Of a stretch of 64,000 nt of DNA, positions 49,504-64,000 are shown in pieces. The notes beneath the pieces were generated by a model that worked only from the letters and a program-made list of their open reading frames with translations, had not been told where the DNA came from and did no database searches. The DNA is from Flavobacterium sp. N502540 (GTDB lineage Bacteria > Bacteroidota > Bacteroidia > Flavobacteriales > Flavobacteriaceae), in the NCBI RefSeq assembly GCF_025947365.1, contig NZ_CP110012.1:124001-188000 (forward strand), read 5' to 3'. Within the stretch, counting starts at the first letter, position 1; each line of letters starts with the position of its first letter. The position numbers and the translations under genes were made by a program.

Positions 49504-49914
49504 ATGAGCACAGAAACCAGACCCAGAAATATTGGCCGAAATATCAGCCGTATCAGAGAACTTCGCGGAATGAAACAAGAGATTCTTGCAGAAGCTATTG
49601 GAGTAAGCCAGCAATCTGTTTCGAATATTGAAGCCAGCGAAAATATTGACAAAGAAAAACTAGTACTAATTGCAAAAGCACTTGGCGTGACGGTAGAAGC
49701 GATCGAAAATTTTACAGAAGAATCTGTTTTTAATTTCTTTAATAATTTTTACGACAATAGTGCTAACAATGGTCCTCAAGGAAATGGAGACAGTAACACT
49801 AATTTTAATTGCACCTTCAACCCTCTTGATAAAGTGGTCGAGCTGTACGAACGTCTCGTTCAGGCCGAAAAAGACAAGGTCGAATACTTAGAAAAATTAA
49901 TGAAATTGAAATAA
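49504..49914 (+). CDS. XRE family transcriptional regulator
   Basis: This 136-residue protein has a helix-turn-helix of the XRE type at residues 9-63 (IGRNISRIRELRGMKQEILAEAIGVSQQSVSNIEA in adjacent parts). An asparagine-rich linker follows near residue 85-105, then a C-terminal coiled coil (KVVELYERLVQAEKDKVEYLEKLMKL) for dimerisation. A -7 box TATCTTTG lies at 49492-49499, only four bases before the ATG, so the mRNA may be leaderless. It is convergent with the Roc-COR-TIR gene and ends at a strong terminator. It could regulate a neighbour or itself. Confidence 0.9.
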   Translation: MSTETRPRNIGRNISRIRELRGMKQEILAEAIGVSQQSVSNIEASENIDKEKLVLIAKALGVTVEAIENFTEESVFNFFNNFYDNSANNGPQGNGDSNTNFNCTFNPLDKVVELYERLVQAEKDKVEYLEKLMKLK

Positions 49915-50004: not shown

Positions 50005-50223
50005 GTTGTGTCAAAATTTAAAAAAACAAAAACTTTGACACAGAAGTTGTGTCAAAAAAATAAAAAATAAAAATTTTGTCACAGAAATTTTGTCACAGAA
50101 GTTGCAACAAAACAAAAATAAAATCAATTTTGTTACAACTTTTGTGGCAAAAATAAAAAACACAAAAAAATTGCCACAGAAGTTGTGGCAAAACCAAAAT
50201 AAAAATCAAATTTGCCACAACTT
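50005..50223. repeat. Tandem array of five ~40-base hairpins with covarying stems
   Basis: Five hairpins begin at 50007, 50048, 50102, 50143 and 50183, i.e. a step of about 40 bases apart from one 14-base duplication. Stems are: 50007-50015 with 50034-50042; 50048-50056 with 50075-50083; 50099-50112 with 50128-50141; 50143-50150 with 50171-50178; 50180-50192 with 50211-50223 (13 bp). The stem core changes from GTGTC to CAACA to GTGGC while pairing is mostly kept. Loops are A/T-rich. A 14-base direct duplication lies at 50071-50084 and 50085-50098. Confidence 0.85.
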
Positions 50224-54148: not shown

Positions 54149-54327
54149 AATATCTTTTTATTTATAAATGCTTAAAAAATTGAACATTTCAAAACTCTAT
54201 TCCAAGCCTTTTTTTTCACTTTTGCAATTAAAAGTATCCTGTAAAAAAAAAATCAAAGATGCATAAGATTTAGTATGTTTTTTTTACGGTTTACCATAAT
54301 CTATAGTAAATTACTAATTTTTGTTCT
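54149..54327. other. Long AT-rich leader of the Roc-COR-TIR gene
   Basis: About 175 bases separate the predicted -7 box from the ATG. No frame or clear hairpin is present; poly-A/T runs dominate. Confidence 0.5.
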
Positions 54328-54378
54328 CAAATATATATAAACAAAAAGCCTTCAAACCAAGTAAAAACACCTGATTTA
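54328..54378 (-). promoter_or_regulatory. Promoter and upstream element of the Roc-COR-TIR gene, shared with the RlaP pair
   Basis: On the minus strand TATATTTG (54328-54335) is preceded by 17 bases and TTTG. Further upstream is a CAGGT-N6-ACTTG near-palindrome. Bases 54337-54378 match 60857-60898 at 37 of 42 positions, with the first 20 identical. The shared part covers -33, the spacer and the palindrome. Confidence 0.7.
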
Positions 54379-54407
54379 AACAAAAGCTTTTTCTCAAGTT
54401 CCAAAAT

Positions 54408-54448
54408 AAAAACACTGCTGTACAATTATTTTGCACAGCAGTGTTTTT
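54408..54448 (-). terminator. Rho-independent terminator of the 98-residue/barrel operon
   Basis: A 14-bp perfect stem (54408-54421 with 54435-54448) with a 13-base loop and T residues on the minus-strand exit. It lies 23 bases past the stop of the barrel gene. Confidence 0.85.
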
Positions 54449-54471
54449 TATCAAATTATTAGGCTTTATAA

Positions 54472-55632
54472 TTAAAGTTTATTTAACTTGAGGTCACCAT
54501 TTGCATCCGAATTTCCAAAATTATAAGTAATATTCAAAAAACCAAGAAAATTAGATTTCTCAATATCATACTTGATCGTTAAAGGAATCCAAATATCTTT
54601 AGTTACACGAATTCTGAAATCGGAACTCGCTAAAAAAGTATTCTTTTTTTCATCAGCTAATTTATTTTTCAAAATCGAATTATACTCCATATATAATTTT
54701 ATTTCAAATACACTTTGTTCATTTCTTTTAAACATTTTATAGTTAAGACCGGCAGAATTTCTCGATTCTAATCTTTGAACACTCTTCTCTATTAAAGTGT
54801 CGGAGTAAATTAAATTTGATCTAATATCTAATTCCAGCTGTTTAAAACCTTTTAAAAAAACAGTCCCGAAGGTAAGTTTCTTATTATTTCCCTTATCGTT
54901 AGTAGTTCCATTTAAAGAAAGTGTCCATAATGCTTTTTTTTCAAGATCGGAATATTCATCTTTTCTTAATTCATGAATTTTTTCAATATAATCTTTCAAT
55001 TTTATCGATTTGTTCCGGTTTTCAAACTCAGTAAGGATTTGATCAAAATAAGGATTTGATTTACTTAATTCATCTATTTTATCAAATTCTTTATCTTTCA
55101 GTATAGAGGTTGCTATGTTTATAGCTTTTATATTTGCACTTAACTCCTTGTTATCTGTTTTATCTAATTCATCAACAAGTTTATCATATATTTTAGACAA
55201 TTCACTCCTCCAAAATTTATATTCAAGTGCAAGCACAGTTTTTGCAAAATTGACAACGTCTTCGTCTCTCTTATTAAATACAGCGTAAGTAATTCCGCCA
55301 GAAAATCCTTTGTAATTAAATTGTTCATCAAAATTAAGCTTGGTATTGAACTCTAAATTTCTTGAAAATTTCTGTTTAGAAAAAACTATATCTTTTGTGA
55401 TATTCTCGCAAAAAATAGATTTGATACCGTATAAGGTAGAATTAAATTCAACACTTTTGTTTGGCCCCGTTAAATTACTAGTTCCTAATTGAAAAATACT
55501 GGAAAGTATATCTTTATAGTTCCCAGATTTTGATTTCTCGGTCATCTCTCTAAGCTTTTGAATTGTATCATTTTGAGCTAGTACAATATTAGACACCAAT
55601 AAAGCTAAAAAACATATAAAGTATTTTTTCAT
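54472..55632 (-). CDS. Secreted, probable outer-membrane barrel protein of unknown function
   Basis: This 386-residue protein has a signal peptide (MKKYFICFLALLVSNIVLAQ). The middle (about residues 130-235) is helical and charged. Both flanks have alternating amphipathic strands (NLEFNTKLNFDEQFNYKGF; FLGFLNITYNFGN near the end), typical of an outer-membrane barrel, here possibly split by the helical insert. No family is recognised. It lies 11 bases after the 98-residue gene. The pair is expressed from a promoter with the palindromic site used by the divergent two-component genes. Confidence 0.65.
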   Translation of the reverse strand: MKKYFICFLALLVSNIVLAQNDTIQKLREMTEKSKSGNYKDILSSIFQLGTSNLTGPNKSVEFNSTLYGIKSIFCENITKDIVFSKQKFSRNLEFNTKLNFDEQFNYKGFSGGITYAVFNKRDEDVVNFAKTVLALEYKFWRSELSKIYDKLVDELDKTDNKELSANIKAINIATSILKDKEFDKIDELSKSNPYFDQILTEFENRNKSIKLKDYIEKIHELRKDEYSDLEKKALWTLSLNGTTNDKGNNKKLTFGTVFLKGFKQLELDIRSNLIYSDTLIEKSVQRLESRNSAGLNYKMFKRNEQSVFEIKLYMEYNSILKNKLADEKKNTFLASSDFRIRVTKDIWIPLTIKYDIEKSNFLGFLNITYNFGNSDANGDLKLNKL

Positions 55633-55643
55633 GATCTGTTTAT

Positions 55644-55940
55644 TTAAATTTCGAAATAAAATAATTCAGTAATGAATGGCTTCGTTGTCACTCTTTTAGC
55701 ATTATGAAATGGTCCTCTGGTAAAACTACCCACTAACTCAATTTCTGTTTTTCCATTTATAGCGTTCATTCCAAATAGTTTAAGGGTATAGCGACCGCTT
55801 TCTATATTAAAATCTTGATTAAAAGAAGTTGGAGATTCATACTCAATTTCTTTACGAGTGTCTATATTTTTGATTTCAACTCTAATTGGCAGGGGTGCTA
55901 ATCCATCACTAATTCTAACTTTTACTTTAATTGTTTTCAT
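55644..55940 (-). CDS. Small beta-sandwich-like protein, unknown function
   Basis: The ATG at 55940 gives 98 residues with no signal peptide, starting MKTIKVKVRISDGLAPLPIR. Strand patterns and a GRYTLKLFGMNAINGKTEIEL segment suggest an immunoglobulin-like or C2-like sandwich. An upstream in-frame ATG at 55964 would lie three bases from the -7 box and is less likely. It is the first gene of the operon opposite the response regulator. No family is recognised, and a cytosolic or non-classically exported effector is possible. Confidence 0.65.
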   Translation of the reverse strand: MKTIKVKVRISDGLAPLPIRVEIKNIDTRKEIEYESPTSFNQDFNIESGRYTLKLFGMNAINGKTEIELVGSFTRGPFHNAKRVTTKPFITELFYFEI

Positions 55941-55966
55941 GATTTCTATGTTTTTAGTTAACATCT

Positions 55967-55998
55967 CAAAAGTATCCTGATAACAGTATATCAATCAA
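55967..55998 (-). promoter_or_regulatory. Promoter of the 98-residue/barrel operon
   Basis: On the minus strand TTG (55996-55998), 21 bases, then TACTTTTG (55967-55974), a full match to the Bacteroidota consensus. The TTG is the end of the palindromic arm at 55996-56018. Confidence 0.7.
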
Positions 55999-56018
55999 TT
56001 ACCCTTTTGGGTGATATT
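55996..56018. promoter_or_regulatory. Palindromic operator, left copy
   Basis: This 23-base site has the core ACCCTTTTGGGT and is the exact reverse complement of 56096-56118. It abuts the -33 box of the minus-strand promoter, as expected of an activator site. The LuxR-type regulator encoded next to it is the natural candidate. Confidence 0.75.
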
Positions 56019-56095
56019 TTATTTTTTACAATTCTCACTTTATTTTTTGTAAGTTTATTCTATAAATACCATTTGTCTTTTTTGAGTTAATTTCT

Positions 56096-56118
56096 AATAT
56101 CACCCAAAAGGGTAATTG
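56096..56118. promoter_or_regulatory. Palindromic operator, right copy
   Basis: The exact reverse complement of 55996-56018, with core ACCCAAAAGGGT. Its end contains the TTG (56116-56118) that serves as the -33 box of the response-regulator promoter. Confidence 0.75.
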
Positions 56119-56146
56119 CGGTCAATGAACTTATTGTACAACTTTG
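56116..56146 (+). promoter_or_regulatory. Promoter of the two-component operon
   Basis: TTG at 56116-56118, then 20 bases, then CAACTTTG (56139-56146), one base off TAnnTTTG. It mirrors the minus-strand promoter on the other side. Confidence 0.55.
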
Positions 56147-56165
56147 TAAAAGAAAATGTAACGCC

Positions 56166-56795
56166 ATGAAGATACAAGTAGCCATAGTAGAGGATGATAA
56201 GAATTACAATCAGGCCTTAAAAAATATCATCGATTTCCAACAGGATATGGAATGTGTGGCTCAGTTTTTTAACGGTAAAAATGCTTTGCAAAAACTGGAA
56301 GCCCTGGAACCAGACGTGGTTTTAATGGATATTCAGTTGCAGGATTTATCAGGTATTGATCTTGTTTTTAAATTAACAGACGTAATGCCAGGCACAACCT
56401 TTGTTATGTGCACCAGTTTTGAAAATGACGAAAAAATATTTTCGGCATTACGTGCAGGTGCAAGTGGTTATCTGGTAAAAGGAGATCCGCTAGACAAGAT
56501 AATTCAGGCGATTCAGGAAGCTCACAAAGGCGGTGCCCCTATGAGTTTTGCGATTGCAAAGCGCGTTTTACAACATTTTCAGGAAACAAAAGTACAAGTA
56601 CAAACCTTATCGTTACTGACTGTAACCGAAAAAGAAGTTCTTGACTTGCTGGCGCAGGGACTTCTCTACAAAGAAATTGCCGATAAAAAAAATGTCACCA
56701 TCGACACCATTAAAAAACACATTGGCAATATCTACCGAAAGCTACAGGTAAGTAACAAAATTGAAGCAATTAACAAGTTTAACACCAAAAACTAG
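56166..56795 (+). CDS. LuxR/NarL-type response regulator
   Basis: This 209-residue protein has a receiver domain (residues 3-120) with VEDDKNYN acidic residues, the phospho-accepting Asp in EPDVVLMDIQLQDLSG near residue 57 and the CTSFEND/GYLVKGD switch residues. A LuxR helix-turn-helix follows (about 145-205) with LTVTEKEVLDLLAQGLLYKEIA and TIDTIKKHIGNIYRKLQV. It should be phosphorylated by the histidine kinase at 58157 and bind the palindromes upstream of its own gene. Two small unknown genes lie between it and the kinase, with gaps of five and four bases, so all four form one operon. Confidence 0.95.
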   Translation: MKIQVAIVEDDKNYNQALKNIIDFQQDMECVAQFFNGKNALQKLEALEPDVVLMDIQLQDLSGIDLVFKLTDVMPGTTFVMCTSFENDEKIFSALRAGASGYLVKGDPLDKIIQAIQEAHKGGAPMSFAIAKRVLQHFQETKVQVQTLSLLTVTEKEVLDLLAQGLLYKEIADKKNVTIDTIKKHIGNIYRKLQVSNKIEAINKFNTKN

Positions 56796-56800
56796 AAATT

Positions 56801-57508
56801 ATGGACACACTAAAACTACAAGAAAAAGTTACTAAAAAAGCATTTTTAAAAAAATTTGAAAAATCACCACCGCTAGTTCTTAAAACTATGCCGGATGTGG
56901 AGGTTGATTCAAGAAATAAAGCCTTAAGAAAACTAGCAATAAAGAATATGATTTATGATTTCTGTATCGATTCAGAAAATTTCATTTCTGAAATATCTAG
57001 TTCTTATGATAATGCCCCTGTAGAAGAAAAGAAGAAATTAGATTACTTTAAAATATACTTCATACAAGATGATAATGATCAATTTTCAATTTGTTTTTCT
57101 ATATCTTCTGTAGAAACCGAAAAATTTGGAGATAAAGATTTCTTTTTCAAAATTAAGGCTAAAAAAATAGAAAAAATTGAGAAAGAAGACTTTATAAAAT
57201 ATAGTAACAATTATAAAAATAAATTACTTCAAACAATTAATACACAAACCAGGATTGGTGATCTCCAAATCAAAAATACAGAAGCAGTTAGTTATAAACT
57301 TAAAGACCTCTACTTTTTTATTCTAAAGCATTTTTTAATTAACTCTAAACCTGAATCTAGTTACTCAGAATTGTTTTTTGAAATGATTAAATTTGAAGAA
57401 ACCGCTGAAGAGCCTACAAATCAAAATAAATTGAGTATCGTTGTTCGTGCACAAAGTGTTTCAAAAGGCAGAGCTCAAGCATACGACTTTGGAAGAGTTT
57501 ATCCTTAA
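56801..57508 (+). CDS. Unknown soluble protein in the two-component operon
   Basis: This 235-residue protein has no signal peptide or membrane segment. It is lysine/glutamate/phenylalanine-rich, with an N-terminal helix (MDTLKLQEKVTKKAFLKKFE), a mixed middle (DYFKIYFIQDDNDQFSICFSIS) and a C-terminal SIVVRAQSVSKGRAQAYDFG tail with unusual GRAQ/AYDFGR residues. No family is recognised. Its position between regulator and kinase suggests a signalling or target role, but nothing in the sequence shows it. Confidence 0.7.
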   Translation: MDTLKLQEKVTKKAFLKKFEKSPPLVLKTMPDVEVDSRNKALRKLAIKNMIYDFCIDSENFISEISSSYDNAPVEEKKKLDYFKIYFIQDDNDQFSICFSISSVETEKFGDKDFFFKIKAKKIEKIEKEDFIKYSNNYKNKLLQTINTQTRIGDLQIKNTEAVSYKLKDLYFFILKHFLINSKPESSYSELFFEMIKFEETAEEPTNQNKLSIVVRAQSVSKGRAQAYDFGRVYP

Positions 57509-57512
57509 CTAA

Positions 57513-58160
57513 ATGGAAGTATTACAAATTGTTTACATAAGTTGTTTAAGCATAACAACACTAAAAGCAATAGTTTTGGGCTGGAAATATACATTTCCTG
57601 CTCAAAACTATTTGGGTATTTATCTAATTGGGACTTTAAGTTTAGAAGTCTTTGGAGAAATTAAAGCCTACTTAAAGCAATTTGACTTTGCCGTTTATTA
57701 TAATATATATGCAATATCCTGCATTCTATTTTTTGGAATCTATTTTTCAAAAATCTATATCGGAAATTTTAAGCGAATTGGATTATTTGTTGCATTCATC
57801 CTTTTATCTTACTGTTTCATTTTTATTGATATTCTAAGCACAAAGTTTTTACCACAACTAGGAATATTGGTAGCTTTATTCTACATTTTTAATTCCATTT
57901 TGTGGTTTTATCAAAAACTTCAAATTCCGGTTGAAGGTAAGATTACCGACGATCAGAATTTCTGGATTTCAACCGCTTTACTTTTCTGGAGTACTTACAT
58001 TATTTTTAGGTTTACACCTATGTATTTATTCGAAAAGGAAGATCTGTTTTTCTTAGAAATTCTAAAAAAAATTAGCTCTGTAGTCAATTTTATCATGTAT
58101 GCTCTATTTTATTATGCCCTTATAAAATATGAGCGAATCACAAAAACCTCAACTAAATGA
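57513..58160 (+). CDS. Six- or seven-helix membrane protein, probable sensor partner of the kinase
   Basis: This 215-residue protein is almost all membrane: segments at about residues 3-22, 30-50, 58-78, 85-103, 112-132, 145-163 and 180-207. The layout is like that of 7TM sensor modules, and it overlaps the kinase gene by four bases (ATGA). The kinase itself has only one membrane segment and no input domain. A split sensor, with this protein as the membrane input, is therefore a reasonable inference. The ligand is unknown. Confidence 0.75.
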   Translation: MEVLQIVYISCLSITTLKAIVLGWKYTFPAQNYLGIYLIGTLSLEVFGEIKAYLKQFDFAVYYNIYAISCILFFGIYFSKIYIGNFKRIGLFVAFILLSYCFIFIDILSTKFLPQLGILVALFYIFNSILWFYQKLQIPVEGKITDDQNFWISTALLFWSTYIIFRFTPMYLFEKEDLFFLEILKKISSVVNFIMYALFYYALIKYERITKTSTK

Positions 58161-58984
58161 GCGAGCTGCCTCACGAAATAAAACTTACTTATATCATTGC
58201 CATCATAGTGATGCTACTTTTTGTTTGTTTTATAATTATCGTCGTGTTTATTTACAACAAAAAACAGCTTATTCAGCAGCAGGAAAACCAAATCAAAGAA
58301 AGCGAGTTTCAAAACCAGTTGCTGCAGAAAGAATTAGAACGTCAGAAAGCAATTCAAGTAGAAAGAGAGCGTATTTCGCAGGATATGCATGATGATCTTG
58401 GTGCCGGAATTTCGGCCATAAAACTTCAGGCAGAATTTTTAAAATATAAAATGCCTGAAGAAAGTTTTTCGGAAGATCTGGAAGTCATTATAACTACTTC
58501 AGAAGATATGAATTTAGCCATGAGAGAAATTCTCTGGAGTCTGAATTCTCAAAATGATACTATTGGTAATTTTATAGAATATGTGAGTCTCTATGTCAAA
58601 CGTTTTTTAGACAAAACGACTATAACATTTCAGCTAGATTCGAATATCATTGAAAAAGAAACCAATTTATCTGTAAAAGCCAGAAGAAATCTCTTTTTGG
58701 TAGTAAAAGAAGCCGTACACAATGTATACAAACACAGTGAGGCCACTAACCTACTGATTAGATTTGAGGAATCTGATATTTCGTTTAAAATTGAAATCAT
58801 CGATGACGGTATCGGATTTTCTGAAACGATTCAAAAAGGAAATGGTATCAACAATATGTCGCTTCGAATGGAAGCCATACATGGCACTTTTAAAATTGTT
58901 TCTGCTCAAAAAGGGACACATTTATTGTTTGTGTGCCCCTTAGAAGATCAAATTTTAGAACAGTACAGCAAAGAATCTTTTTAA
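58157..58984 (+). CDS. Sensor histidine kinase, HisKA_3 type
   Basis: This 275-residue kinase has one transmembrane segment (about residues 12-32) followed by a coiled coil (KKQLIQQQENQIKESEFQNQ). The HisKA_3 dimerisation domain has the phospho-acceptor His in ERISQDMHDDLGAGISAI near residue 77. The ATPase has N-box KEAVHNVYKHSEA and DDGIGF with GNGINNMSLRMEAI. It lacks any periplasmic input domain, so sensing probably depends on the overlapping membrane protein. It is the classic partner of the LuxR-type regulator at 56166. Confidence 0.93.
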   Translation: MSELPHEIKLTYIIAIIVMLLFVCFIIIVVFIYNKKQLIQQQENQIKESEFQNQLLQKELERQKAIQVERERISQDMHDDLGAGISAIKLQAEFLKYKMPEESFSEDLEVIITTSEDMNLAMREILWSLNSQNDTIGNFIEYVSLYVKRFLDKTTITFQLDSNIIEKETNLSVKARRNLFLVVKEAVHNVYKHSEATNLLIRFEESDISFKIEIIDDGIGFSETIQKGNGINNMSLRMEAIHGTFKIVSAQKGTHLLFVCPLEDQILEQYSKESF

Positions 58985-59006
58985 TACATCAAAAGCAGGC
59001 TTTTCC

Positions 59007-60065
59007 TTATTTATACAATTCTTCTCTAATTTTGATTAGAGTTTGAACGGCCTTTTCTTCATCAGGTTTGTCAGGAAGATTTGAAGTTACGTAATGACTT
59101 TCGATTGAAGCAATTAATTGATCGGCCATTTCTAATAAATCATCGTATTCTTTATTTCCTGCTTTTATATCTAATAATTCATCCCGATTAGAAACTCTGA
59201 TATTTAATTTTCCAGTGGACAAAATCTGTTCCGCAGTTTGTAAAAGTCTGATAGTATGCATCATGTTTTTACTGTCATAATTCTTTCCATGCTGCTGATT
59301 CGTATTGTAACGATCTTCGTTACGCTTCTCAATCCAATTCCAGTATTCAGTATATTCTTTGCAATACTTTGAATAGCCATCCTGATTACAAGACAAGTAA
59401 CCCATTAGCTTTTCATCTTTTGGAATTGATGAAAGCGAAACTTCATTGGAGGTTTCTTTCTGAATAATTCCTTTATAGCCTAAAGTTTTATTTTCGTCAT
59501 AAAACATGGCAAACATTCCTTTTGAATTAGGCAGATTTACTAAACCTATTTGTTCCTGATTCCAGTTATTCTCTTTTAAAAATGCCAATAAAGAAACTGT
59601 TTCGTATCCATTTAAAACATAACAAAAGTCCAAAAGGTTTTTCTTTTCCTTTGGCATTGGATTTACAATTTTCTTGTTTAAACCTCTCGCCTTTTTGATC
59701 TGAGTTACGGCATAACCTGCAAAAGAATCTTTGCAGAGTTTAGACAAAAAATCTCCTAATTGTAAACGCTCCATCAGCGGATGTTTGTACAAAATACAAT
59801 CTTCCGGTGAAGCTAAAATTTCCAAAATATTAGGATTATTTTTAAGCAATAATTCTACAAAACGCCCTATTTCGTAATAAACCTCATCATTCGTCTCATT
59901 ACTAACCTGCGGAATATAATCTAACCCAAAGAATTTTTCTTTTGGCAGATAATAGACCCCTTTAATATCGGTATCGGATGTTGGTGTATTTAACCCAAAA
60001 GATCTACTACCCGAAATAACTTCGAATAGGATTAGGTTTTGGGATTTTAAATTTTGGATGGTCAT
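59007..60065 (-). CDS. RlaP-like nucleotidyltransferase (DNA polymerase beta superfamily)
   Basis: This 352-residue protein has the minimal nucleotidyltransferase motif GSRSFGLNTPTSDTDIKGVY near residue 19, with G-S followed by D-x-D metal-binding aspartates. A long C-terminal helical region follows (KNMMHTIRLLQTAEQILSTG). It fits the group of predicted nucleotidyltransferases called RNA-ligase-associated Pol-beta-like (RlaP), proposed from gene context to act in RNA repair. It lies 12 bases after a second, different family member and near rtcB, supporting that role. The substrate is not proven. Confidence 0.85.
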   Translation of the reverse strand: MTIQNLKSQNLILFEVISGSRSFGLNTPTSDTDIKGVYYLPKEKFFGLDYIPQVSNETNDEVYYEIGRFVELLLKNNPNILEILASPEDCILYKHPLMERLQLGDFLSKLCKDSFAGYAVTQIKKARGLNKKIVNPMPKEKKNLLDFCYVLNGYETVSLLAFLKENNWNQEQIGLVNLPNSKGMFAMFYDENKTLGYKGIIQKETSNEVSLSSIPKDEKLMGYLSCNQDGYSKYCKEYTEYWNWIEKRNEDRYNTNQQHGKNYDSKNMMHTIRLLQTAEQILSTGKLNIRVSNRDELLDIKAGNKEYDDLLEMADQLIASIESHYVTSNLPDKPDEEKAVQTLIKIREELYK

Positions 60066-60077
60066 TTTACTGAAATT

Positions 60078-60839
60078 TTAAACTAAACTATTCTTAAATG
60101 TTTCTCTTCTAAAAAACAAATCCAACTCTTCATTTATCTTATTCCCACTTCCTAACTGACTTGCATTCTCTTGATTAAATTGTATTGTTTCCAATAAAAA
60201 ATCGGTTATTAAAGTTTCTTTAGGGTGCAAATATTTTTCGTCCTGATGGGCTTTTATATTTTGCAACTCTATTATTTTCTCTTGTATATTTTGTGGTGCA
60301 ATTGGCAATAAATCGGCAAAAGCAACGGGTGGAAAAGTATTCTTTTCTATAATCCATTTTCCTGCTAAAGCTGTTCTTAAAGCGTAGAAATAACTCTTTA
60401 GTTTTACTTCTTCCATTTCGCAAACTTCCATAAAGTTTTTCGTTGTTCCTAAATAGTGGTGTAAAACCGCTATTGGTGAAAAACATTCAACGGCTAAATC
60501 TTGCATTTGTTTTACAAAATCATCCTCCTGAAAATACACAACTGGCGAAAACAACCACTCAATCAAAGCTGTATTAGATTTTGCTAATAACTTTACAGAT
60601 TTACGTAAATCCCATCCAGAACCATCAAGGTCATCTTCGGTCATGAACTCGATAACGTCCGGTTGTTCCCAAAGCGACAAATAGTATTCTGGTTTGTGTT
60701 TGTATATAAAACGAATATCATAATCGCTGTCCGGAGAAGCAAATCCCCACGCACGACTTCCAGATTCTACTGCAAAAAGTACCTCTACCTCTTTCTGCTT
60801 TTCTATTTCTTTTAATTTTTCTAATATTTTTTCTTTCAT
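60078..60839 (-). CDS. Second RlaP-like nucleotidyltransferase
   Basis: With the ATG at 60839 this is 253 residues. The motif ESGSRAWGFASPDSDYDIRFIY near residue 21 carries the G-S and D-x-D catalytic signature. IEFMTEDDLDGSGWDLRKSVKLLAKSN near 60 is typical of the YcgL-like/RlaP group. It is the promoter-proximal gene of the pair, and its -7 box is 9 bases before the ATG. The 42-bp promoter element shared with the Roc-COR-TIR gene sits just upstream. It is related to but clearly different from its downstream partner, so the two may form a heteromer or act in series. Confidence 0.85.
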   Translation of the reverse strand: MKEKILEKLKEIEKQKEVEVLFAVESGSRAWGFASPDSDYDIRFIYKHKPEYYLSLWEQPDVIEFMTEDDLDGSGWDLRKSVKLLAKSNTALIEWLFSPVVYFQEDDFVKQMQDLAVECFSPIAVLHHYLGTTKNFMEVCEMEEVKLKSYFYALRTALAGKWIIEKNTFPPVAFADLLPIAPQNIQEKIIELQNIKAHQDEKYLHPKETLITDFLLETIQFNQENASQLGSGNKINEELDLFFRRETFKNSLV

Positions 60840-60848
60840 GATTGTTTT

Positions 60849-60898
60849 CAATGTAAATAAACAAAAAGCCTTCAAATCAAGCACAAATACCTGACTTA
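60849..60898 (-). promoter_or_regulatory. Promoter and upstream element of the RlaP pair, shared with the Roc-COR-TIR gene
   Basis: Bases 60857-60898 are 37/42 identical to 54337-54378. On the minus strand the order is a CAGGT...CTTG near-palindrome, TTTG, a 17-base spacer and TACATTG as -7. The placement relative to the -7 box agrees with the other copy within one base. Confidence 0.7.
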
Positions 60899-62242: not shown

Positions 62243-63040
62243 CTAAATCCCAAAAAAGCTTTTAGAATTTCGTGTCGTTTCTTCCGCCACTTTAGCTAAA
62301 GTAATTCCTTTAAACTGTGCAATGGTGCCGGCCACAAAAGGCAGAAAAGCAGGTTCGCAACGGCGTTCGTGATATTTCTTCAAAAGGCTGTTCGGTACAT
62401 TTTTAGGAAGCATAAACGGCGCATCGGTTTCGATCATCAGGCGGTCGAGCGGTACGTATTGAATGACTTCTTTTAAATGAGCGAAACGTTTGGTATCAGA
62501 AATCGCTCCGGTAAAACCCAGATAAAATCCGTTATCGAGATAGGTTTTGGCTTCTTGCAGCGTTCCCGTAAAACAATGGACCACGGCTTTGGGCAATTGC
62601 GGTAAATAGTCTTTGGTAATATCCATAAACTTTGTAAAAGCTGCTCTTTCGTGCAAAAACAAAGGTTTCTGTACTTCAATCGCCAATTCGAGTTGGGCTT
62701 TATAACAGGTTTCCTGCACATTTCTGGGCGAAAAGTCACGATCAAAATCGAGTCCGCATTCGCCAACCGAAACTACATGTTTTAGTTCTAATAGTTTTCG
62801 AAGTTTCGAAATACTCTGTGCATCGAAACTCTTCGCATCATGCGGGTGTATTCCTGCTGTCGCATACAGTACGCCCGGGTACTGCCTCGCCATCTTAGCG
62901 GATTCTTCACTGTTTCGTATGCTTGTGCCCGTGAGGATCATCTGCGATACGTCGGCATCGAGTGCGTCTTGTACGACATCGTCTGTGTCGTTTTGGAATT
63001 GTTTGTTGGTTAGGTTAATACCTATGTCTATATATGTCAT
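62243..63040 (-). CDS. tatD: TatD family DNase / metal-dependent hydrolase
   Basis: This 265-residue TIM-barrel hydrolase has the YIDIGINLTNKQF start as in E. coli TatD, ATAGIHPHDAKSF with its metal-binding histidines near residue 61, VGECGLDFDRDFSPR near 92 with the metal-bridging glutamate, KPLFLHERAAF, VVHCFTGTLQEA near 150 and LMIETDAPFMLPKNVP near 200. TatD enzymes are 3'-exonucleases on DNA and RNA. It lies between the lipoprotein and the repeat mosaic on the minus strand. Confidence 0.92.
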   Translation of the reverse strand: MTYIDIGINLTNKQFQNDTDDVVQDALDADVSQMILTGTSIRNSEESAKMARQYPGVLYATAGIHPHDAKSFDAQSISKLRKLLELKHVVSVGECGLDFDRDFSPRNVQETCYKAQLELAIEVQKPLFLHERAAFTKFMDITKDYLPQLPKAVVHCFTGTLQEAKTYLDNGFYLGFTGAISDTKRFAHLKEVIQYVPLDRLMIETDAPFMLPKNVPNSLLKKYHERRCEPAFLPFVAGTIAQFKGITLAKVAEETTRNSKSFFGI

Positions 63041-63479: not shown

Positions 63480-64000
63480 CTAATCCTCCTTACTCCCATC
63501 ATCCGCCATTCTCACTAATTTAGGTGTAAATTTAGCCACTACATCCACTAAATCCTCCTGCGCTTTCATCACCTGATGGATATCTTTATAAGCCATTGGC
63601 GCTTCGTCCAGACCTGCCCCGATAAGCGTAACGCCATGATCGCTCAGGATTGATTTCATCTCTGTTGCTGTAATGTTTTTAATCGCCTGAGTTCGGCTCA
63701 TTTGTCTTCCCGCTCCGTGCGAAGCCGAATTGATCGCGTTCTCCTCCCCTTTTCCTCTCACCAAAAATCCCGGTGCGGTCATACTTCCCGGAATGATTCC
63801 CATCACGCCTTTTCCGGCCGGAGTTGCTCCTTTTCTATGCACGATCACTTCTTCGCCGTTCCAGATTTCTTTCCATGCAAAATTATGATGGTTTTCGACT
63901 TTGGCTAAAATCGTCGCTCCTAAAGCACGTTCCATTTTGTTATGGATAATCTCGTGACATGCCGAAGCATAATCTCCCGCCAAATTCATCGCCATCCAGT
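63480..64000 (-). CDS. rtcB: RNA ligase RtcB, C-terminal part (cut by window edge)
   Basis: About 173 C-terminal residues are visible and the start lies beyond the window. Landmarks are NHHNFAWKEI, VIVHRKGATPAGKGVMG, IPGSMTAPGFLVRGKG and NSASHGAGRQMSR, where the histidine of HGAGR is the GMP-accepting residue, then GVTLIGAGLDEAPMAYKDI. RtcB joins 2',3'-cyclic phosphate or 3'-phosphate RNA ends to 5'-OH ends using GTP and manganese. It is upstream of tatD on the minus strand and three genes away from the RlaP pair, a known RNA-repair association. The stop codon sits inside a repeat. Confidence 0.95.
   Translation of the reverse strand, partial: WMAMNLAGDYASACHEIIHNKMERALGATILAKVENHHNFAWKEIWNGEEVIVHRKGATPAGKGVMGIIPGSMTAPGFLVRGKGEENAINSASHGAGRQMSRTQAIKNITATEMKSILSDHGVTLIGAGLDEAPMAYKDIHQVMKAQEDLVDVVAKFTPKLVRMADDGSKED

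Follow-up and report, generated by a model that had tools for sequence, protein, structure and literature searches.

A promoter element with a 16-bp dyad, designated P1, precedes both the nucleotidyltransferase gene RlaP1 and an LRR-Roc-COR-TIR gene in a 64,000-nucleotide (nt) stretch of Flavobacterium sp. N502540 (contig NZ_CP110012.1, positions 124,001 to 188,000), which is referred to here as the window and whose own numbering is used below. Comparison with related genomes suggests that part of the genus Flavobacterium has a chromosomal defence hotspot near rtcB/tatD, of which P1 is probably the resident promoter, the cargo behind it being exchanged: P1 would stay, and the gene or operon behind it would differ. 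If P1 stays while the cargo differs, whichever defence system resides there would fall under the same control. The genome comparison shows (i) the conservation of P1 and its dyad, (ii) the change of cargo, (iii) the fixed spacing between dyad and -7 box, and (iv) the link of a second dyad promoter, P2, to a family of response regulators.

The first-pass annotation of the window had described a 42-bp match between positions 54337-54378 and 60857-60898, and the repeat is real: 37 of the 42 bases agree, the leading 20 are the same, the other 5 positions differ, and the whole forms a 49-nt direct repeat at 86% identity. Both copies lie on the minus strand, as had been claimed, each facing a gene. 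BLAST of the first copy against its own genome returned, besides itself, the second copy only (E 1.2e-10); a 36-base pattern allowing up to 3 mismatches had exactly 2 matches in the 5.4-Mb genome, with 0 in the reversed control; and the 20-base core, again with up to 3 mismatches, had 2 matches in the window versus a shuffle mean of 0.07. A plain dispersed repeat is therefore rejected, since the genome contains P1 twice only, and other matching genomes hold one or two matches each. The boxes assigned earlier fared less evenly. The TTTG taken for a -33 box is not firm, as relatives mostly have TTTAAA at that place, and the -7-like box ascribed to both copies is good at the TIR copy (TATATTTG) and degenerate at the RlaP copy (TACATTGA), unlike the TAYATTTG found ahead of RlaP in most Flavobacterium relatives with P1. 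RlaP1 starts 8 nt after the -7 box of its copy; at the TIR copy, 179 nt separate the -7 box from the start codon, with another promoter-like element within.

The whole promoter pattern was searched, with up to 3 mismatches and a reversed control, in 398 Flavobacterium genomes and was found at 57 places in 50 of them (control, 0). By our own reading of the surroundings, 49 of the 57 places are in the rtcB/tatD neighbourhood and 8 elsewhere (L085, L090, L115, L117, L120, L122, L128, and L135; L numbers denote our loci). RtcB or TatD stands upstream at 37 of the 49 sites, within the 1.5-3.1 kb examined upstream, so that flanking core genes are found on the left side of the hotspot, the right boundary not being fixed. 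The first gene after P1 is RlaP1 at 14 of these sites and another gene at 32; as for the other three, no gene faces P1 in L123, a lipoprotein gene comes first in L134, and the contig ends in L138. When relatives were collected through RlaP1 instead (80 loci kept of 146), P1 proved to be part of the RlaP1 promoter in many Flavobacterium loci, with the consensus dyad CASGTRnnnnTACnnG, often TTTRAA in the -33 place, and then TAYATTTG; it was not present in several Flavobacterium loci or in the Chryseobacterium loci of this collection. The Chryseobacterium-type RlaP1 dyad differs: among the 43 loci L042-L084, 37 have TRCGYAA-N5-TTRCGYA, with up to 1 mismatch, 53-55 nt ahead of the start codon.

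The repeat might alternatively be a homologous-recombination arm that bounds moving cassettes, its promoter character being incidental. The direct repeats do bracket a 6.5-kb stretch, the similarity extends upstream into a hairpin in some relatives (by eye), and P1 forms the left end beyond which the cargo changes; nearly all of the 49 copies, however, point towards a gene and have a -7-like box at their end (the exceptions being L123 and the contig end in L138), and with one or two copies per matching genome no copy marks the right ends. We consider this explanation very unlikely.

The nature of the cargo supports the reading of P1 as the promoter of a defence hotspot. From 105 listed entries, in which some genes are repeated, 39 cargo proteins were scanned with PADLOC; they were picked to cover types and not at random, and several share one operon. 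An alignment of mixed cargos and the stretch L140 did not enter the comparison. At E<=1e-15, 26 of the 39 matched, under more than 10 system names (GajA, GajB, HamA, HamB, LmuA, LmuB, Tmn, OloA, IetS, Avs4, PDC-S06 [PrrC-like AAA_13], PDC-S28, PDC-M62A, Ppl, AriA, a type II methylase, a CARF protein, and, for the TIR of the window, ThsB), so that unrelated defence systems occupy one site across genomes. The systems behind P1 include Gabija, Hachiman, Lamassu-like, Tmn, and LRR-Roc-COR-TIR genes, and relatives of the last, 51-61% identical to the one in the window, stand behind P1 in L272, L273, and L276.

The locus would come in two versions: in one, P1 is followed by RlaP1, variable cargo, and RlaP2 as a single apparent operon, and in the other the cargo comes straight after P1, usually with P2 in its leader. 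The RlaP1 loci compared number 22, consisting of 20 relatives with P1 before RlaP1 (up to 4 mismatches), L006, whose P1 is beyond that limit, and the window. RlaP1 is immediately followed by variable cargo, a gene or an operon, in 18 of them, and RlaP2 comes after the cargo in 13 of the 18; in the other five, RlaP2 is not among the first open reading frames listed. RlaP2 directly after RlaP1, that is, an empty slot, is seen in 4 of the 22 (the window, L005, L006, and L008), three of which have another gene behind a second P1 further on; L017 carries a second P1 after RlaP1, ahead of the cargo. RlaP1 itself had no PADLOC match. The earlier annotation had proposed a promoter element common to RlaP1 and the TIR gene and, with it, a special pairing of a TIR effector with RNA repair. 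A dyad promoter is indeed common to both genes; the pairing is not TIR specific, given that the same P1 precedes many unrelated defence genes and that the order RlaP1-cargo-RlaP2 is common. Judging from these gene orders, it appears to be a general rule that RlaP and a defence effector are controlled together, and TIR no special case. RlaP1 and RlaP2 are likewise separated by diverse genes in many Chryseobacterium and some other loci, where RlaP1 has the different dyad given above.

In the genome of N502540, the RlaP1-RlaP2 slot is empty, with the LRR-Roc-COR-TIR cargo behind a second P1 6.5 kb off that may have arisen by duplication. The two nearest relatives, L005 and L006, likewise have a second P1, ~6.4 kb from RlaP1; behind it is a cut-off frame of 203 amino acids (aa) in L005 and a two-gene unit in L006, while the gene ahead of it is 386 aa long in the window and L005 but a different one, of 471 aa, in L006. 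One may ask whether the two copies are simply a local duplication of little meaning in this strain, the RlaP control having decayed and the TIR copy alone working. The degenerate RlaP1 -7 box of the window and L005, its further decay in L006, and the empty slot with another gene behind the second P1 in all three would fit such a course, but the dyad and the 20-base core are retained at the RlaP copy, and RlaP1 and RlaP2 are still open frames, the RlaP1 of the window being 98% identical to that of L005 and 96% identical to that of L006. We hold a meaningless duplication to be rather unlikely.

The spacing of the dyad bears on how P1 may work. In 15 genomes that had been selected because they contain P1, 27 exact P1 dyads were counted (control, 0). 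TTTG lies at exactly 26 nt in one direction from 10 of 27 distinct sites, any other spacing occurring at most twice. Promoters of class II activators have the dyad centred near -41.5 and a poor -33 box. If the -7 box is placed as in F. psychrophilum, for which PMC9723704 gives a box TAnnTTTG spanning -12 to -5, the P1 dyad would lie at -50 to -35 with its centre at -42.5, and P2 with its usual 25-nt spacing would have its centre at -41.5 (the P2 of the window has 26 nt). Because class II activators sit at about these positions, P1 would be bound and turned on by an activator, perhaps a NarL-type regulator.

A NarL-type response regulator is a candidate only for the activator of P1. Four of the ten 26-nt P1 dyads, together with a one-mismatch site of the N502540 genome, adjoin the gene of such a regulator; the frame that each of them faces is ~41-47 aa long and probably has one membrane helix (L170, dyad at 1501-1516, L176, L179, L204, and L207). 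A P1-type dyad with 26 nt and TTTG close by occurs in all five loci that have a response regulator like that of L170 (at least 84% identity); since all five were fetched through the dyad, the regulator remains a lead. The L170 dyad has no 26-nt spacing towards the 419-aa gene and has it in the opposite direction, towards the small frame; the L170 regulator has receiver and GerE domains (Pfam). In the N502540 genome, the NarL-type regulator beside the one-mismatch site lies ~3 kb from one of two P2-type regulators.

Further regulator genes were tried and rejected: (i) the WYL gene ~4 kb beyond rtcB (L171:6643-7680), where neither P1 nor P2 turned up in 13.5 kb even when 1 mismatch was allowed, so that no WYL regulator with an operator at its own promoter was found in the locus; (ii) the 23 genes for cyclic nucleotide monophosphate-binding (Crp/Fnr-like) proteins of the N502540 genome, which had no exact P1 or P2 dyad within 1.5 kb on each side (three one-mismatch matches occur, in L288, L290, and L293); and (iii) the XRE gene at 49504-49914, whose own promoter has, by eye, a different conserved sequence. 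Separately, P1-like dyads were seen ~114-134 nt before genes in L162, L180, L185, L186, L202, and L206 and ~58 nt before one in L085, with no TTTG at 26 nt towards the genes in the exact sites; we take the proteins encoded there to resemble tail-collar proteins.

A simpler account would make P1 a strong constitutive promoter at a landing site, its dyad without a regulator and the incoming genes gaining transcription only. It would agree with a regulator that is only a linkage candidate and with the lack of dyad enrichment in the family sample described below; yet in loci selected through RlaP1 and not through P1 the dyad halves recur while the adjacent bases vary, and exact dyads are found at other loci too with TTTG 26 nt on (the 10 of 27 mentioned above), one of them preceding a DNA methylase gene. 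This account seems to us unlikely. The genes behind another of the 26-nt P1 dyads presumably resemble DndD.

For P2, a putative regulator can be named. When up to 2 mismatches are allowed, 23 of the 32 cargo leaders contain the P2 dyad, TTAYGG-N4-CCRTAA, whereas shuffling gave a mean of 0.4 and a maximum of 3; TTTG lies 25 or 26 nt past the dyad in 21 of the 23. RlaP1 starts 8-9 nt behind its box, which therefore leaves no room for P2. The 15 P1-selected genomes hold 131 exact P2 dyads versus 8 in the control. Among 83 distinct P2 sites, TTTG follows at precisely 25 nt in 52, any other spacing occurring at most 6 times. P2 with TTTG at 25 nt was also found at 98 places in 67 of the 249 genomes of the family sample, versus 11 in the control. 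PADLOC was applied to ten of 28 genes that follow P2; four matched at E<=1e-15 (a cyclase of the cyclic oligonucleotide-based antiphage signalling system [CBASS] type, two GajA, and a PDC-M71A protein), two matched more weakly, and four did not match.

Of the 98 P2 loci, 21 encode a response regulator of ~222 aa beside P2, versus 0 of 251 other loci; the nearest P2 lies behind the stop codon of the regulator gene, 14-88 nt away at 16 loci and 124-873 nt away at the remaining five. Of 20 family loci, five were picked partly because P2 sites cluster there. In a test independent of P2, the regulator itself was searched in 31 genus genomes, which gave 20 ortholog loci and two further strong matches without a locus. 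P2 was present beside the ortholog loci exactly in 13 of 20, with up to 1 mismatch in 16, and with spacing and TTTG in 15, and beside 0 of 10 distant response regulators; excluding L350, L351, and L353, which were already known from P2, leaves 10 of 17 exact and 13 of 17 with up to 1 mismatch. Operator and regulator are thus linked across genomes. In the 222-aa protein, a receiver domain is all that Pfam detects, and comparison with solved structures gave no useful match. P2 would answer a sensor kinase-response regulator pair by way of this regulator. A simulation that used one leader for each cargo type gave ~0.01 for helical phasing between P1 and P2; this is suggestive only, a 13-nt period fitting equally.

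Both dyads were also observed away from the hotspot. At ~3385.6 kb of the N502540 genome (L147/L159) and in L178, P2 and P1 dyads together precede different genes, the one in N502540 being a DNA adenine methylase gene; the neighbour in these places is presumably prfA, beside which P2 alone occurs in L198, L212, L217, L222, and L245. A P2 dyad lies 13-16 nt before a gene of 203-206 aa, which we assume to resemble part of a conjugative element, in L210, L218, L221, L231, L234, L243, L244, L247, and L259. In L197 and L251, P2 dyads stand ahead of what we take to be a Cas1-like gene and of a CBASS cyclase gene (the cyclase by PADLOC).

Several observations weigh against a general, P1-controlled hotspot: (i) the P1 pattern is unmatched in 348 of the 398 genus genomes, and 12 of the 49 sites have neither rtcB nor tatD in the stretch counted as upstream, four of these being second sites (the window, L116, L093, and L138) and eight having other or too little upstream sequence; (ii) exact P1 dyads do not rise above background in the family sample, where 38 of 249 genomes yielded 45 matches (four of them from N502540 itself) and the control yielded 39, so that P1 looks confined to part of the genus; (iii) 13 of the 39 scanned cargo proteins fall below the PADLOC mark, and the AAA models of PADLOC match widely; (iv) L008 has an empty slot and no second P1 in the 10 kb examined; (v) 9 of the 32 cargo leaders lack P2; and (vi) the element first described as shared by RlaP1 and the TIR gene is unequal between them, the TIR gene having in addition the P2 operator, which RlaP lacks, and the RlaP copy having a degraded -7 box, likewise in L005, with the element further decayed in L006. 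Because the -7 box of the RlaP copy is poor, shared control of RlaP and the TIR gene may be weakening in N502540.

With these points in mind, we tentatively propose, as a possibility, a promoter-anchored immune cartridge, in which a fixed, regulated P1 near an RNA-ligase gene would drive exchanged effectors, the RlaP pair would form an RNA-repair or self-protection frame, and P2 would link many cargos to a family-wide two-component circuit.

The features of the window are collected in the table. Between the TIR gene and the XRE gene, which is convergent with the cargo end and recurs in 12 of the 49 site stretches (the window counted twice), positions 50006-50219 hold a 78-nt repeat in four overlapping copies. 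A 16-bp dyad, TNACCC-N4-GGGTNA, occurs twice (55999-56014 and 56100-56115) between a 116-aa gene and a NarL-type response regulator gene (56166-56795); having the same 6-N4-6 form as P1 and P2, these dyads are likely the regulator's own operator.

Table. Position, strand, and basis of the features at the P1 locus of the window
Feature	Position	Strand	Basis and remarks
P1 copy of the TIR gene	54328..54373	-	Dyad CAGGTGTTTTTACTTG (54358-54373), 26 nt, TTTG of -7 box TATATTTG (54328-54335); 0 mismatches to genus pattern
P2, second promoter of the TIR gene	54254..54299	-	Dyad TTATGGTAAACCGTAA (54284-54299), 26 nt, TTTG (54254-54257)
LRR-Roc-COR-TIR cargo gene, 1249 aa	50399..54148	-	Pfam; PADLOC ThsB-like TIR
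Terminator-like hairpin with T-run upstream of P1	54408..54448	-	By eye; similar by eye in L005 and L006
P1 copy of RlaP1	60848..60893	-	Dyad CAGGTATTTGTGCTTG, degenerate -7 box TACATTGA; 3 mismatches to genus pattern
RlaP1 nucleotidyltransferase, 253 aa	60078..60839	-	Pfam RlaP, 257 bits on longer frame; start from conservation with relatives
RlaP1-RlaP2 junction, 12 nt	60066..60077	-	Spot where other genomes hold a cargo gene or operon
RlaP2 nucleotidyltransferase, 352 aa	59007..60065	-	Pfam RlaP, 88 bits
TatD-family DNase	62243..63040	-	Pfam; frequent neighbour upstream of P1 in other genomes
RtcB RNA ligase	63480..64000, extends beyond window	-	Pfam RtcB on complete gene in L171
386-aa gene, no Pfam match	54472..55632	-	Upstream of second P1; relative precedes second site in L005/L116 and L138

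To conclude, the locus offers a conserved switch with differing weapons, and the switch can therefore be studied apart from any one system. P1 and P2 provide search handles for unknown defence genes, P2 with a testable regulator and P1 with a candidate, and RlaP, so far predicted to act in RNA repair, is tied to the cargo that its pair brackets. A search by title and abstract, with most subscription papers outside its reach, returned no paper on the P1 locus or on the P1 and P2 dyads. In integrons, too, a resident promoter serves cassettes that can be exchanged; neither an integrase nor an attachment site was noticed in the loci, although no dedicated search was made. Gac/Rsm control, for its part, is post-transcriptional.

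Among systems described in the literature, RlaP is a predicted partner of RNA ligases (PMC7824862, PMC6514570), and its published neighbourhoods and the P1 locus are alike in having an RNA ligase gene nearby, here rtcB; two RlaP genes bracketing a variable defence cargo under one promoter are not mentioned in the accessible sections of these two papers. The core defence hotspots cDHS1 and cDHS2 of Pseudomonas aeruginosa, as set out in PMC10250203, are defined by their flanking genes and share with the P1 locus a fixed chromosomal site, between core genes, holding strain-dependent, unrelated defence systems, whereas one promoter with its dyad is kept across cargos in the P1 locus; the discussion of that paper leaves the construction and regulation of such hotspots to future work. 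Inverted repeats at defence promoters are common to P1 and the WYL regulators BrxR and CapW (PMC9122601, PMC9122588), but BrxR is a repressor, and the repeats that it binds lie in the region of its own promoter (PMC9122601), whereas the P1 dyad is upstream of the -7 box, in what would be an activator position. Finally, Gac/Rsm in Pseudomonas (PMC11888443) resembles P1 and P2 in placing many unrelated defence factors under a single regulatory pathway; Gac/Rsm acts genome-wide, whereas control here would run through promoter dyads, with P1 mainly at one locus and P2 scattered.

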